64,000 nt of DNA from a bacterium (lineage in GTDB: Bacteria > Bacteroidota > Ignavibacteria > Kapaibacteriales > UBA2268), in contig JANJTB010000036.1 in assembly GCA_024711295.1 (NCBI GenBank), forward strand, positions 1 to 64,000. Reading direction: 5' to 3'. A program made the translations under genes and the position numbers. Positions 41,633 through 46,791 of the stretch are shown here, piece by piece (positions within the stretch are counted from its first letter, which is position 1; every line of letters begins with the position of its first letter). The notes beneath the pieces were generated by a model. It had not been told where the DNA came from and made no database searches. It saw nothing but the letters and a program-made list of their open reading frames with translations.

Positions 41633-42259
41633 TAAGTGAATACTAGATTCCAAACAAAAAGGAGCTATGTTGTATTGAGCCCCAAAAGTTAGACAAAAAA
41701 CTTTTGGGGTTTTTCTATGCTAGAAAAGAGAAAGAGCAGGAAGCAACTTATGCTGCAAATCAATCATTTAAATTTTAATTATCAAAAATATTTTGCAGTT
41801 TAATATATTTTTCTTAAATTGGTAATAGTGTATTGTGTTATTTTCAAATAATTATGTATCAGAAAATTACATATAGAAAAACAACAATATTGAGTAATAT
41901 AATATTTTCTCAATATCAGCACTTAATTGCATTATTTATATTAATGTTACACACCAAGTTCCGTCATCTTCCACTAAATAATTTACTAATCTCAAAGAAA
42001 TCTCAAAGAATACAATTATTTATTTATACCACAAAATTATTTTTATTTTTTGAGGAAATCAAAATACCGGGAATCAAGCTACTGTTGCAAAGGGATTAAT
42101 AAGTTACGAGTAATCCTTGTTGCAGCAATCAGATAATAAAAAACAATCAAATTTAACTTGATAGAATTTCAATATTTAAATTTACAAGTTATTCAGGCAA
42201 ACTCACAAGAATTTATATGTATTATACTTTTAATAATATTCATCAAGGAACATTGAATA
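41633..42259. other. Long AT-rich gap with hairpin and possible IS end
   Basis: These 627 bases hold no confident gene. The hairpin at 41680-41709 is described separately. A plus-strand open stretch at 41833-42099 (88 codons, basic and hydrophobic, MYQKITYRKTTILS...) has no ribosome-binding site or recognisable motif, and I did not call it. The last part should carry the promoter of the peptide gene at 42260. The composition is extremely AT-rich. Confidence 0.55.
41680..41714 (+). terminator. Hairpin after the M13 peptidase gene
   Basis: Perfect 11-bp arms CCCCAAAAGTT (41680-41690) and AACTTTTGGGG (41699-41709) with an 8-nt loop, then TTTTTC. It lies 48 bp past the stop of the peptidase gene. 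The same sequence with its left flank (TGTATTGAGCCCCAAAAGTT) also resembles the terminal inverted repeat of IS150-type elements (see findings). Confidence 0.75.
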
Positions 42260-42529
42260 ATGAAAATTAAATTATTAGCAATCATAATGATTTTATTGAT
42301 AATAACTTCATCATTATTATATTCCTTAATAGCTTATAGTGACACTGGCTGGACATCAGCTTCAGGTACTTCTGCTAAAGGTAAAGCCATCAATATTACT
42401 GATGTTGGTAATGGGTATACATTTTACTGTGTTGGCACCGGAACTTGCTTTATGATTATTGGTAATACATTGATCATTGAAGAAGGAATCGGAACAGGAG
42501 GTATTTCACATGGAGTATTTAGAAATTAA
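42260..42529 (+). CDS. Small exported Cys-pair peptide
   Basis: An 89-residue protein with a long hydrophobic leader (MKIKLLAIIMILLIITSSLL) and a short mature part rich in Gly, Ser and Thr (SDTGWTSASGTSAKGKAI). It has two Cys (57 and 63 in YTFYCVGTGTCFM) and the hydrophobic tail IIGNTLIIEEGIGTGG. I do not recognise a family, although size and context recall the small exported (NVEALA-like) proteins of Bacteroidota. A strong terminator-like hairpin follows, then a propeller-like and a thioredoxin-like gene in the same direction, so it is probably expressed above its neighbours. Confidence 0.7.
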   Translation: MKIKLLAIIMILLIITSSLLYSLIAYSDTGWTSASGTSAKGKAINITDVGNGYTFYCVGTGTCFMIIGNTLIIEEGIGTGGISHGVFRN

Positions 42530-42538
42530 ATAAGAAAG

Positions 42539-42578
42539 GTTCTGTAGTCTTTAATTAGGCTACAGAACTGATTTTTTT
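42539..42578 (+). terminator. Hairpin terminator/attenuator after the 89-residue peptide gene
   Basis: GTTCTGTAG (42539-42547) pairs perfectly with CTACAGAAC (42560-42568), then TGATTTTTTT. It sits 10 nt after the peptide's stop and 18 nt before the next ATG, so it likely acts as a partial terminator inside the unit. Confidence 0.8.
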
Positions 42579-42595
42579 ACTATATAATTAATAAT

Positions 42596-43891
42596 ATGTC
42601 AAAGTTAATAATAATATTTTTTAGTATAATGTTGATGTCAAATCAATGCACCTTGAAAACAAAAGACGCACAAAACTATAAAGCAAAGAAAATATCAATT
42701 GAGGAATATATTGCGCCCAAACAACTTAAACTGATAAATACAATTAGTTTTGAGGAAAATGACAGCATTATAATAAATCGTATAGCTGGTATTGAGTTTT
42801 GTAGTAATGGGAAAAAAATTGTTCTAACAGATGATGCAAACAGATTTATTTTGCTTATTGACAGCAAAAACGGCAAAATTCTAAAATCTGTTGACTCAAA
42901 AAAAATGAATTTCAAATGGGTTGATGATTTTTTGATGTGCAATCCAATTCCAAATCAATTGATTAGAAATGACCTTAAATATATTCCGATTACTGACTAT
43001 TTAAAGTATGGATTGACTGATGAGTCGCTCGATTTAGTCAGAATGCATTATTTTATTCCTAAGTGTGTTAATGGCAAACTTGTTATATCAAACCTAATGT
43101 ACATTTTTGCTGTATCAGACAAAGTAAAACATAATAGTATTGATAACCGATCAGGGTTTTGTTTATTTGATAGTGAACTGAATTTTGAAAAAATGATTGT
43201 TCCTGAAGTTCTGCTAAGCTCATATTTCTTGTATGATAATTATGAATTTTTAAGCAATGGCGAAATAATCGGAACAACAAGCAATTTTTCGTACAAAGAA
43301 AAAGATATAATGGACTCGATTGTTACAGTAGCCAAATATGATTCAACAGGTAATTTTCTTGGAAATATTGGATATTTACCCGATATATACACAAATAATA
43401 ATCTGGCTTACGAAGAGCATTGGAAGCCCTTAATTACTTCAATAAACGATAGTTTATTTATTTTATATCCAAGAACAAAAGATGTCTATGGACCTGGTCA
43501 AAAAATTAGATTTACTCTACAAAATATTCCATTTTCTAACGACTCAGGATTAGTTTATTTATATAATTACTATAGGTTAGCCCGCCTTCAACAAAGAACT
43601 CCTAACAGTAAGGAAATTGGAAGACTATTACCTTTTTCAATTATAAACTCATTCAACACTAATGGAAATCTAACAATAATAATTTTAGTATTTGATGAAA
43701 GTGAGAATATCGGTTTTTATTATTTAGTCCAAGAATATGATACCAAGGGAAATTTATTATCTCATTCAAAAATATATGATGAGCCTGAAAATCAAATCAG
43801 AAATTTTGTATATGACAAACATAATAATTATATGTGTATCGTAAGAAAAAGTAAATTCGGCTGGACTTTAGAAAAAAGAGAATGGAAGTAA
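42596..43891 (+). CDS. Propeller-like exported protein (6-bladed beta-propeller type)
   Basis: A 431-residue protein with a hydrophobic leader ending LMSNQC (a non-standard lipobox; Cys 18 may be lipidated). The mature part reads like a beta-propeller lipoprotein of the BF3164/6-bladed type: RIAGIEFCSNGKKIVLTDD, RFILLIDSKNGKILKSVD, VTVAKYDSTGNFLGNIG and YDTKGNLLSHSKIYDE. There is no enzyme motif. Its stop overlaps the next ATG (TAATG), so it is translationally coupled to the thioredoxin-like gene. It follows the small peptide and its hairpin. AT-rich codons. Confidence 0.75.
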   Translation: MSKLIIIFFSIMLMSNQCTLKTKDAQNYKAKKISIEEYIAPKQLKLINTISFEENDSIIINRIAGIEFCSNGKKIVLTDDANRFILLIDSKNGKILKSVDSKKMNFKWVDDFLMCNPIPNQLIRNDLKYIPITDYLKYGLTDESLDLVRMHYFIPKCVNGKLVISNLMYIFAVSDKVKHNSIDNRSGFCLFDSELNFEKMIVPEVLLSSYFLYDNYEFLSNGEIIGTTSNFSYKEKDIMDSIVTVAKYDSTGNFLGNIGYLPDIYTNNNLAYEEHWKPLITSINDSLFILYPRTKDVYGPGQKIRFTLQNIPFSNDSGLVYLYNYYRLARLQQRTPNSKEIGRLLPFSIINSFNTNGNLTIIILVFDESENIGFYYLVQEYDTKGNLLSHSKIYDEPENQIRNFVYDKHNNYMCIVRKSKFGWTLEKREWK

Positions 43892-44334
43892 TGAAAGTAA
43901 GAGGTATTACTATATATTTAACATTTTTATTATGTTCAAACATCCTTTATGGCAACATTGCTGATTCATTGAGGACTGCGACTAATACATCCAAAAGCGA
44001 GATTTTGTTGATTTTCCATTTTAATATAACTGGATGTGTAAAGTGCTATATTGAACCAAATGAGATAATTTCAAATCTTGAACGAAATAAACATACTAAG
44101 AAATGTAAAATCGTTGCTTCTGTTTTGTGTGATAGAGATATCGAATTAAAGATATTTTCAAAAAGCCAAAAATGGAAATTTGGCTTGTTAAGAAATGATG
44201 GAAATTTGTTACAACAACTAAATGCAACTAATGAACATTTCTTAACTATAATTACTACTGACAATAAACTTATAAACTTAAAACCTGGTAATCCTGAACA
44301 AAACTATAATAAAATTGTTAATATAATTAATTAA
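43891..44334 (+). CDS. Exported thioredoxin-fold-like protein with CxxC
   Basis: A 147-residue protein with a signal-like N terminus (ITIYLTFLLCSNILYG). A strand-Cys-x-x-Cys element, LLIFHFNITGCVKCYIEP (Cys 49 and 52), sits where the active site of TlpA/thioredoxin-type proteins lies. The later FLTIITTDNKLINL is a plausible last strand, but the cis-Pro segment is unclear. I chose the ATG at 43891, which forms TAATG with the upstream stop; an ATG at 43882 would overlap more. It is the third gene of the peptide/propeller module; a thiol oxidase or reductase for the Cys-pair peptide is an inference from context. Confidence 0.68.
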   Translation: MKVRGITIYLTFLLCSNILYGNIADSLRTATNTSKSEILLIFHFNITGCVKCYIEPNEIISNLERNKHTKKCKIVASVLCDRDIELKIFSKSQKWKFGLLRNDGNLLQQLNATNEHFLTIITTDNKLINLKPGNPEQNYNKIVNIIN

Positions 44335-44440
44335 TAGCCCATTGCTGTTTTTTTGTAAATCAGGAAACAGATAGTATTACCAGATGAAAATTAAAACTTA
44401 AATAAAGGCAATTGTTTAACTTAACATTTTTAGGAAGTTG

Positions 44441-44500
44441 AATCCCAAGAAAAAGGATTTTTCGCTACGCTCAATATGGTGTAATAATCATCATTTTGAA
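44441..44500. repeat. 60-bp direct repeat, copy 1
   Basis: The 60 bases 44441-44500 match 46689-46748 at 59 of 60 positions (one T/C difference at the end). The core is TTTTTCGCTACGCTCAATAT. Unlike copy 2 it lacks the inverted arm on its right. It lies between the two peptide modules. Confidence 0.95.
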
Positions 44501-44597
44501 TAATCGTTGGAAACACTTATTACAACTTAATATTGTTATTTGAAAAGTTGATTGTTTTTTCTTGATAAATTTAATCATTTTTTTAAGGAGTTTTTGT

Positions 44598-45056
44598 ATG
44601 CAAAAACTAAATAGAGTACTTTTATTCTTTTTCCTATTGCAAATTTCAAATTCATTCTCATATATTCAAACATTTAATTCTACAATTGATATGGAAGAAA
44701 GAGGCGATGGAACTCCAAATTTTGGTAGTTATTATGAGACTGTTCATATTTATTGTTTACCTGATAGATGTGAATTAGTGTGCTATCAACCTGGTGTTTC
44801 GTACGAATGTGACTGGGAATTTGCCACAACTTGCCACGATTGCGAAGATTCATGGGCTATTTATGACAACACAAATAGTAGTGAACTTTTTAATTATGCA
44901 AAAAATCAAATTGCTATAGGTACATATAATGGAACCTATACTAATAATATTTATATTATACCATTAGGTATTACTATTTATCGTAATGTCAACTGGTCAA
45001 TAGATATGAATAGCATGAAATCCTTTATCGATATAACTGTGACTGATGGTAATTAA
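44598..45056 (+). CDS. Small exported Cys-rich protein
   Basis: A 152-residue protein starting at the ATG at 44598, which has AAGGAG 7 nt upstream; a TTG start 36 nt earlier gives an unlikely leader. The signal is MQKLNRVLLFFFLLQISNSF. The mature part has six Cys within 30 residues (53, 58, 62, 71, 79, 82: YCLPDRCELVCYQ, YECDW, CHDCEDSW), so it is probably disulfide-bonded. The rest is beta-like and Asn-rich. No family is recognised. It is followed by a hairpin and then by a propeller-like gene, mirroring the 42.26-kb module. Confidence 0.72.
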   Translation: MQKLNRVLLFFFLLQISNSFSYIQTFNSTIDMEERGDGTPNFGSYYETVHIYCLPDRCELVCYQPGVSYECDWEFATTCHDCEDSWAIYDNTNSSELFNYAKNQIAIGTYNGTYTNNIYIIPLGITIYRNVNWSIDMNSMKSFIDITVTDGN

Positions 45057-45063
45057 TAATTTA

Positions 45064-45087
45064 GGGAAAGAGTTTCGGCTCTTTCCC
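45064..45087 (+). terminator. Hairpin after the Cys-rich protein gene
   Basis: GGGAAAGAG (45064-45072) pairs perfectly with CTCTTTCCC (45079-45087) around TTTCGG. It lies 7 nt after the stop and 20 nt before the next gene. There is no T-run, so it may be an mRNA-stabilising or partial terminator structure rather than a full terminator. The position matches the hairpin of the first module. Confidence 0.6.
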
Positions 45088-45106
45088 CTTAGAAAACAGA
45101 TAATAT

Positions 45107-46189
45107 ATGCATAACATTTTTATTCTTTTTTTTGCTTTTTTAGTAAACTACCAAGAGTATATAATTGAAAGTGATGATAAATATTTCAATACCTTACATA
45201 TTGATTATATCAGTATAAATGATGACATTTACTTGTACGAAACTATTATATCCAAAGACTGTAAAATATTTTTAAAGAATTTAAATGATCAAAACAAAGA
45301 ATATGTGCTTGAGCTTGATCCTGAATTTAGTAAATTCAAAACTTGCAACAAAATTCTTATATCGAACATTCAATCAATTAAAGATACATTATTATTTGTT
45401 ACTTCTGATAAAGTTTTGAAATATTATTTCGATACTGTTGGTGATAAATTCGATCTTATTGAAGTCATTAATTTAGAGGAAATTTTCAAAAAGCCAATTT
45501 TATATTATGGGACAAAGATATTTCTTGAATACCCTTACCTGTATGGTTGGAATGATTTGTATAATTCAAAAAATAGCTCCAATAATTTGTATTATTATAA
45601 AGTAGATTTGAATAATTTAAATATCAGAGAATTTATTGAATTGGATTTACCAAAAGGTTTCTACTGGACTTTGTTTCAACCAAGGAACATAATTGACTTC
45701 ACGAATGGTAAATTCTTATATACAAATGTTACAGAGTATGAAATTTACATCCATAATTTCAGTAAAGGAATTATTGACACAATCAAAAGAGATTTACCTG
45801 ATTGGCGATCTAATACTTTTAGTAACACCAAATTTAGTGGTATTCATCCGGTTCAGATTGCTGAAACTCTTCAAAAAGAATCAGAGACAAATTGTCTTAT
45901 ACATAGGGCAAGCTTTGTTAATGATAGTACAATATTAGTTTGTTATTCAGGCATTGAGAATGAGAAAAAGGGAGGTCAATTATATTCATTTTATTATGAT
46001 ATTTGGAAATACTATGATAATAAATGGTACATCAAAAATGAGCATAAAGACAAATTTTTACTAAACTCCAACAAGGAACTTTCTATCAATCAAAGTTATA
46101 GAATATTATTTAATAATATTTTTTCGATACAATTAAATGAAGATGATGAAAAATATCATGTTTACAAATTTAATCCCTTTGACTATTAG
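45107..46189 (+). CDS. Propeller-like exported protein, second module
   Basis: A 360-residue protein with a short hydrophobic N terminus (MHNIFILFFAFLVNYQ). It is a run of strand-turn repeats with Asp/Asn/Tyr bias (YISINDDIYLYETII, DTLLFVTSDKVLKYYFD, NGKFLYTNVTEYEIYIHNF, DSTILVCYSGIENEKKGG, FNNIFSIQLNEDDEKYHVYKF). This resembles a beta-propeller of the same class as the 42.6-kb protein, though the two are not close. There is no lipobox or enzyme motif. It overlaps the next gene. Confidence 0.66.
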   Translation: MHNIFILFFAFLVNYQEYIIESDDKYFNTLHIDYISINDDIYLYETIISKDCKIFLKNLNDQNKEYVLELDPEFSKFKTCNKILISNIQSIKDTLLFVTSDKVLKYYFDTVGDKFDLIEVINLEEIFKKPILYYGTKIFLEYPYLYGWNDLYNSKNSSNNLYYYKVDLNNLNIREFIELDLPKGFYWTLFQPRNIIDFTNGKFLYTNVTEYEIYIHNFSKGIIDTIKRDLPDWRSNTFSNTKFSGIHPVQIAETLQKESETNCLIHRASFVNDSTILVCYSGIENEKKGGQLYSFYYDIWKYYDNKWYIKNEHKDKFLLNSNKELSINQSYRILFNNIFSIQLNEDDEKYHVYKFNPFDY

Positions 46190-46628
46190 TTCAATATTTG
46201 TACTGTACCAGTCTATATTCTCTATTAAGCTTGAAGAAGTCAAATTAAGTAGCTTTGATAACTGTATTATTATCATTTTGAACACTCCTTATTGTAAAGA
46301 GTGTTTTGATCAATTAATTAAATATCAAGATTTATGGTCTGAGGATTATAAAACAATCTTACTGGTTAAGGCAACAAAAAGTAAAATATCTGTATTAGAA
46401 AATAAGAAATATTATAAACATAAAATTGATTTTGATGATTTGATTTTCATTGAGGAACAAAAAAATGATTTTAATATGCCTATTCATTTATTTGAATATA
46501 CAATTAAAGGATCTCCCTCGATAATTTTAATAAAGAACCAAAAAACACAATTATTTGATCATCAATACTTATATAATGGCAATTATTTATTGGAACTGAA
46601 AGAAAGGTTGAATAATATATTTAATTAA
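46137..46628 (+). CDS. Thioredoxin-like protein with CxxC, second module
   Basis: A 163-residue protein with an N-terminal hydrophobic segment (NLIPLTISSIFVLYQSIFS), so it is exported or anchored. The key element is IIIILNTPYCKECFDQLIK, with Cys 53 and 56 (YCKEC) after a strand. It is followed by KTILLVKATKSK, and SPSIILIKNQKTQ is the probable cis-Pro strand. This is a thioredoxin-type pattern. The 5' end overlaps the propeller-like gene by 53 bp; an ATG at 46158 would give a shorter, more usual overlap. It is the third gene of the second module. Confidence 0.68.
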   Translation: MKMMKNIMFTNLIPLTISSIFVLYQSIFSIKLEEVKLSSFDNCIIIILNTPYCKECFDQLIKYQDLWSEDYKTILLVKATKSKISVLENKKYYKHKIDFDDLIFIEEQKNDFNMPIHLFEYTIKGSPSIILIKNQKTQLFDHQYLYNGNYLLELKERLNNIFN

Positions 46629-46688: not shown

Positions 46689-46762
46689 AATCCCAAGAAA
46701 AAGGATTTTTCGCTACGCTCAATATGGTGTAATAATCATCATTCTGAACGTAGCGAAGAATC
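46689..46762. repeat. 60-bp direct repeat, copy 2, with hairpin arm (REP-like)
   Basis: Positions 46689-46748 repeat copy 1. Here the right end continues as ATTCTGAACGTAGCGAAGAATC (46741-46762), whose reverse complement, GATTCTTCGCTACGTTCAGAAT, pairs imperfectly with GATTTTTCGCTACGCTCAATAT inside the repeat. An imperfect hairpin of about 22 bp can form. CGCTACG..CA-type elements are known as short dispersed REP-like palindromes in bacteria. This copy lies 61 nt after the second module. Confidence 0.85.
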
Positions 46763-46791
46763 AATTATATATTAATTCATAGCTTTTCGCT

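Follow-up and report, generated by a model that had tools for sequence, protein, structure and literature searches.

What do two look-alike groups of three genes, lying side by side on one strand of a bacterial contig, do for the cell, and do the two belong together? The window (the whole stretch of 64,000 nucleotides that was analysed) carries two adjacent three-gene sets, which by ORF reading are S1-P1-T1 (42260-44334) and S2-P2-T2 (44598-46628), each consisting of a small exported disulfide protein (S), a beta-propeller (P) and a thioredoxin-like protein (T). ORF calls, their translations and a hairpin scan show the six genes, both hairpins and the Cys counts of S1 (two) and S2 (six) to be as a first-pass annotation of this DNA had described them. 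We conclude that the sets are a real but functionally uncharacterised system, real because dozens of related bacterial genomes have the same set, and that its role is probably the making and handling of a secreted disulfide-bonded protein.

Folds and selection in the two sets

Table 1. Genes and stem-loops of the two sets, with positions in the window.
Feature	Description	Position	Strand	Basis
S1	small exported protein, 89 aa, one Cys pair (CVGTGTC)	42260..42529	+	ORF
Stem-loop after S1	13 bp, z -5.2, followed by T7; intrinsic-terminator/attenuator-like	42538..42569	+	hairpin scan
P1	exported beta-propeller, 431 aa	42596..43891	+	AlphaFold model
T1	thioredoxin-fold CxxC protein (CVKC), overlaps P1	43882..44334	+	AlphaFold, Foldseek
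S2	small exported protein, 152 aa from ATG, six Cys including CYQPGVSYEC	44598..45056	+	ORF
Stem-loop after S2	10 bp, z -3.5, without T-run	45064..45087	+	hairpin scan
P2	exported propeller of a second family (predicted), 360 aa	45107..46189	+	profile-profile comparison
T2	CxxC protein (CKEC), cis-Pro-type SPSII, 53-nt overlap with P2	46137..46628	+	alignment A3, motif scan

All six genes are under purifying selection relative to the sister genome G002 (dN/dS roughly 0.1-0.27, with some dS values near saturation), and most of their differences from it are at third positions of codons. Scans of the six proteins against Pfam and NCBIfam gave no family match, the same scans of the family alignments gave no usable name, and scans of viral contigs found no relatives of the set proteins.

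The suggestion that the larger proteins are propellers was borne out for set 1 by structure prediction, and for set 2 it rests on profile comparison. From seven-sequence alignments of the window proteins and proteins of related loci, AlphaFold models were made for P1 and T1. The P1 model is a beta-propeller (pLDDT 78.5, pTM 0.80) with a DUF4221-type fold; its best structural match by VIA is 3s9j, a Bacteroides DUF4221 protein (Z 21.8, rmsd 3.9, 319 aligned), and other matches are NHL propellers and 4raa, which is BF0058 of B. fragilis (Z 19.2). In profile-profile comparison both propeller families, that of P1 and that of P2, match the DUF4221 profile with a probability of 95%, and P2 is predicted to be a propeller as well, although neither of the two proteins nor any of their relatives reaches the gathering threshold of DUF4221 (PF13970).

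A similar division applies to the CxxC proteins, for which a thioredoxin fold had been proposed: in set 1 the proposal agrees with the predicted structure, and in set 2 with profile comparisons and the cis-Pro motif. The T1 model has thioredoxin topology (pLDDT 82), and the nearest structures found by Foldseek are ResA/DsbF/TlpA-like (TM 0.55-0.61). The CxxC stands at the start of helix 1, its C52 and C55 being invariant across 21 sequences, and these two residues and C83 are invariant in close relatives. For the T family as a whole, four members of alignment A3 weakly match AhpC-TSA, the profile weakly matches StoA in the PDB, and its comparison with five DUF4221-linked CxxC proteins gave 68%. 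Exported, CxxC-bearing and thioredoxin-folded (in the T1 model), the T proteins are like extracytoplasmic thioredoxins of the TlpA/ResA/DsbE type, ResA and DsbF being the top Foldseek matches. They are unlike them in that identity is 10-19% and in that the cis-Pro before strand 4 is absent from the T1 type, while alignment A3 and a motif scan show it in the T2 type, which retains a cis-Pro-like SPSII. T is predicted to be a redox-active thiol-disulfide partner. The start of T1 had been placed at the stop codon of P1 (TAATG); a second in-frame ATG is present there, and the start is at either 43882 or 43891.

Recurrence of the gene order and independence of the sets

Related loci were found by protein searches and then by alignment searches, their neighbourhoods were read, and the families were gathered iteratively through P or T. 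The gene order had been expected to recur in related genomes, and it does so throughout the order and in two further orders of the class, each with a complete S-P-T set (L175, L176). Among about 54 propeller genes read in order, at loci that were seeded by P or T and are not an unbiased survey, T lies directly downstream in 36 (overlapping in 30) and S directly upstream in 26. The simple arrangement SPT occurs alone 16 times, alongside variants that include SPPT, SPSPT, PPPT and TSP. Distribution is patchy, with the P1 type in 14 and the P2 type (alignment A2) in 28 of the 123 genomes of the order, and the types are never mixed, each kind of S keeping to its own kind of P (S1 to P1, S2 to P2). 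A third S-P-T set, encoding proteins of 147, 413 and 176 aa, lies elsewhere in the window's own genome (L071, G000:C14). At L020 (G005:C42) three tandem propeller genes with 4-nt overlaps are followed by one CxxC gene, with no S detected.

Comparison with the sister genome separates the two sets. There the orthologues of the two sets are on separate contigs and share no flanking genes with the window; set 1 of the window is preceded by an M13 peptidase, and behind this peptidase in G002 no set is present. Their side-by-side position in the window is therefore local, and the two sets are independent units. The shared architecture, noted at first, stands, with proteins that are only remotely related, but the two sets do not form a single unit. 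Recent duplication of one set is likewise rejected, since the profile similarity of P1 and P2 is weak and the profile alignment of S1 with S2 is confined to the signal peptide. A further set in the sister genome (L072, G002:C317) has an in-frame stop in its propeller gene, a sign of decay.

Repeats also surround the sets. A near-identical 60-nt repeat stands behind each of them (44441-44500 and 46689-46748), the second copy extending into a strong palindrome (46703-46763, z -7.5), and we regard it as likely to be a dispersed palindromic element. Upstream of S1, the AT-rich stretch 41985-42105 has copies of 71-83% identity elsewhere in the same genome and in the sister genome, among them copies ahead of the third set and ahead of set 2 in G002. 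We rejected this element as a shared regulator of the modules, as it is a dispersed repeat with other copies. Rfam gave a sub-threshold match on the dispersed repeat and nothing else.

A second feature that had been said to repeat is the stem-loop between S and P, and here the comparison with control gaps is in favour. Among S-P gaps of 30-130 nt, 11 of 18 have a hairpin of z<=-3, versus 12 of 69 other same-strand gaps, similar in length and taken from the same loci (Fisher p=5e-4; Mann-Whitney p 7e-5). The distance first given from the S stop codon is right for set 2 (7 nt), but in set 1 the exact stem begins at 8 nt rather than 10. The hairpin after S1 is the sole terminator-like match in the region, where about one such match is expected by chance. 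What recurs in most S-P gaps is the position: stem sequences are not conserved and a T-run follows in some only, so that termination may not be the sole role, and the hairpin may instead protect the S message. In one S-P gap (L144, 3780-3976) there is an imperfect hairpin of great length (mfe -63 kcal/mol), which may be an inserted element.

The small protein as the likely client

The N-termini of S1 and S2 are hydrophobic and of Sec type, without a double-Gly leader, and downstream of its N-terminus S1 has exactly two Cys residues. Homologues of S1 occur in L017, L018, L019, L131 and other loci, with both Cys invariant in alignment A4, and its dN/dS relative to the sister genome is about 0.17; S2 has its orthologue in L060. 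Identity to the sister genome is 56% for S1, about 56-57% for P1 (57% over the orthologue) and 44% for T1, and 74%, 61% and 60% for S2, P2 and T2 respectively; in this comparison S evolves at no higher rate than its two partners.

A new finding of this analysis is that both S families share a short Cys loop, C-x(2,3)-G-x(1,4)-C. It is found in 26 of 32 S proteins and in 7 of 286 non-S ORFs from the same size range (shuffle mean 1.9), a within-family count that is inflated by common descent and by collection, the S profiles themselves including the motif. The key point is that, at the level of sequence, two separately seeded and otherwise dissimilar S families have it in common. The exceptions are one S relative with a single Cys and a second S copy in L067 without Cys after residue 18. 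Another S relative (L066, 8029-8592) has been called with a His-Ser repeat before its signal peptide, probably through a wrong start codon.

The propellers differ from S in this respect. In the P alignments the fullest Cys columns are occupied in 7 of 12 members (A1) and 6 of 14 (A2), and one of these columns lies in the signal peptide. As P offers no conserved disulfide and S keeps its Cys pair, it is S rather than P that is likely to be the client of T. We propose, with confidence that we would put at about one half, that the sets are accessory operons, independent of each other and each serving a single secreted disulfide-containing small protein; S would be the client, T its thiol-disulfide partner and P its binder. 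S, encoded first, would be exported by Sec and made in excess through a stem-loop that attenuates or protects the transcript; T, in the same exported compartment, would form, shuffle or reduce the S disulfide; and P, whose gene overlaps that of T, may bind S or an S-T complex as carrier, anchor or protector.

Support for such a module comes from the export-type N-termini, the P1 and T1 folds, the gene order, the P-T overlap, the position of the hairpin and the Cys motif of S. Order, folds, Cys pair and hairpins count in its favour together with the lack of mixing between types, purifying selection and the parallel layouts in distant Bacteroidota described below. Our confidence stops at about one half because P-T loci without a detected S exist, because T1 is missing the cis-Pro and because the steps of the mechanism are inferred.

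As to the first of these reservations, T accompanies P at 13 loci in which no S was detected, and at one more that has three P genes. What T serves may thus be P or some other client, although S genes may in some cases have decayed or been overlooked (L078 holds an S-like fragment). Given such loci, the more constant linkage and overlap of T with P than of S with P (36 versus 26), and the resemblance of T1 to ResA-type proteins, P and T could be a functional periplasmic pair, delivering for example redox equivalents to a propeller-bound target, with S a structural or redox accessory rather than an excess client. We consider this unlikely, as the conserved disulfide candidate lies in S and none is present in P, and as S and its hairpin recur with P. 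Less probable still is a surface or matrix system in which the propeller holds S as a building block that is abundant outside the cell. S is small, first in the operon and presumably overexpressed through its hairpin, and some P relatives have a lipobox-like Cys, but no sorting signal or repeat architecture was seen in the S proteins.

Relation to known systems in Bacteroidota

The layout of the sets invites comparison with the loci of Bacteroides in which NVEALA peptides (PF14055) accompany six-bladed propellers (DUF4221, PF13970; DUF5128, PF17170; TolB_like, PF15869), a kinship that the first-pass annotation had guessed and that the shared layout, propeller fold and hairpins support. In both, a small exported Cys peptide is followed by a stem-loop and, directly downstream, a propeller. 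The Bacteroides-type genome G342 has six NVEALA peptide genes, each followed by a propeller-type gene and in four of the six cases with a strong hairpin between; those of its propellers that were tested match DUF4221, DUF5128 or TolB_like, and one of its NVEALA clusters includes genes for a signal peptidase and for a CxxC protein as well. The structural match 4raa is related in sequence to a DUF5128 propeller that adjoins an NVEALA gene. Elsewhere in the phylum, DUF4221 genes are often preceded by a small Cys peptide and sometimes followed by a CxxC lipoprotein (L195, L196, L200, L201).

The differences are equally clear. Neither S1 nor S2 matches the NVEALA model at E<=10 or has an NVEALA leader, NVEALA was not found in the sampled genomes of the order, the P proteins lie below detection by the Pfam propeller models, and the CxxC gene is far more constant in window-type sets than in NVEALA/propeller loci. 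The relation to the NVEALA and DUF4221 families is thus a kinship of layout and propeller fold, not membership by sequence, and the architecture is wider than the window's lineage, with differing leaders.

Operons for double-glycine-leader bacteriocins or RiPPs with C39 exporters offer a second comparison, as they too place the precursor gene first, then a hairpin, then partner genes. Unlike them, the sets have a Sec-type signal and no C39 protease, ABC transporter or modifying enzyme; reading the genes of the sets and the neighbouring ORFs revealed no C39/ABC exporter or modifying-enzyme gene, in keeping with the earlier remark that the module has no dedicated transporter. At L215 (G302:C20) tandem double-glycine-leader Cys peptides stand with DUF4221-type propellers and with short C39-peptidase fragments between them.

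That S might be a secreted antagonistic or signalling peptide, bacteriocin-like, with P as immunity or receptor protein and T maturing S, seems to us doubtful. The patchy, accessory distribution, the differing positions of the sets in the sister genomes, the disrupted copy in G002 and, in G302, the adjoining of DUF4221 propellers to double-glycine-leader Cys peptides and fragments of a bacteriocin-exporter peptidase would all fit. However, that S evolves no faster than its partners speaks against a simple toxin arms race, the module is without an exporter, and the C39 link belongs to another lineage, in which the C39 genes are fragments.

Returning to the proposal of S as a disulfide client handled by T and P, we suggest tentatively, with somewhat less than even confidence, that an undescribed class of peptide-propeller-thioredoxin operons extends across the phylum Bacteroidota and has the sets as one of its branches. 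Such operons would combine a disulfide-containing secreted peptide, a dedicated beta-propeller and a CxxC partner with a leader that varies (Sec, NVEALA or double-glycine). The literature searched on NVEALA, DUF4221, BF3164 and related terms contained nothing on function and, as had been anticipated, no described system of this exact make-up. The constant thioredoxin partner, the shared Cys motif and the recurring hairpin lead to a concrete, testable proposal, in which S is the disulfide client and is bound by P. Should this hold, it would account for a large number of the unknown genes that gut and environmental bacteria carry.
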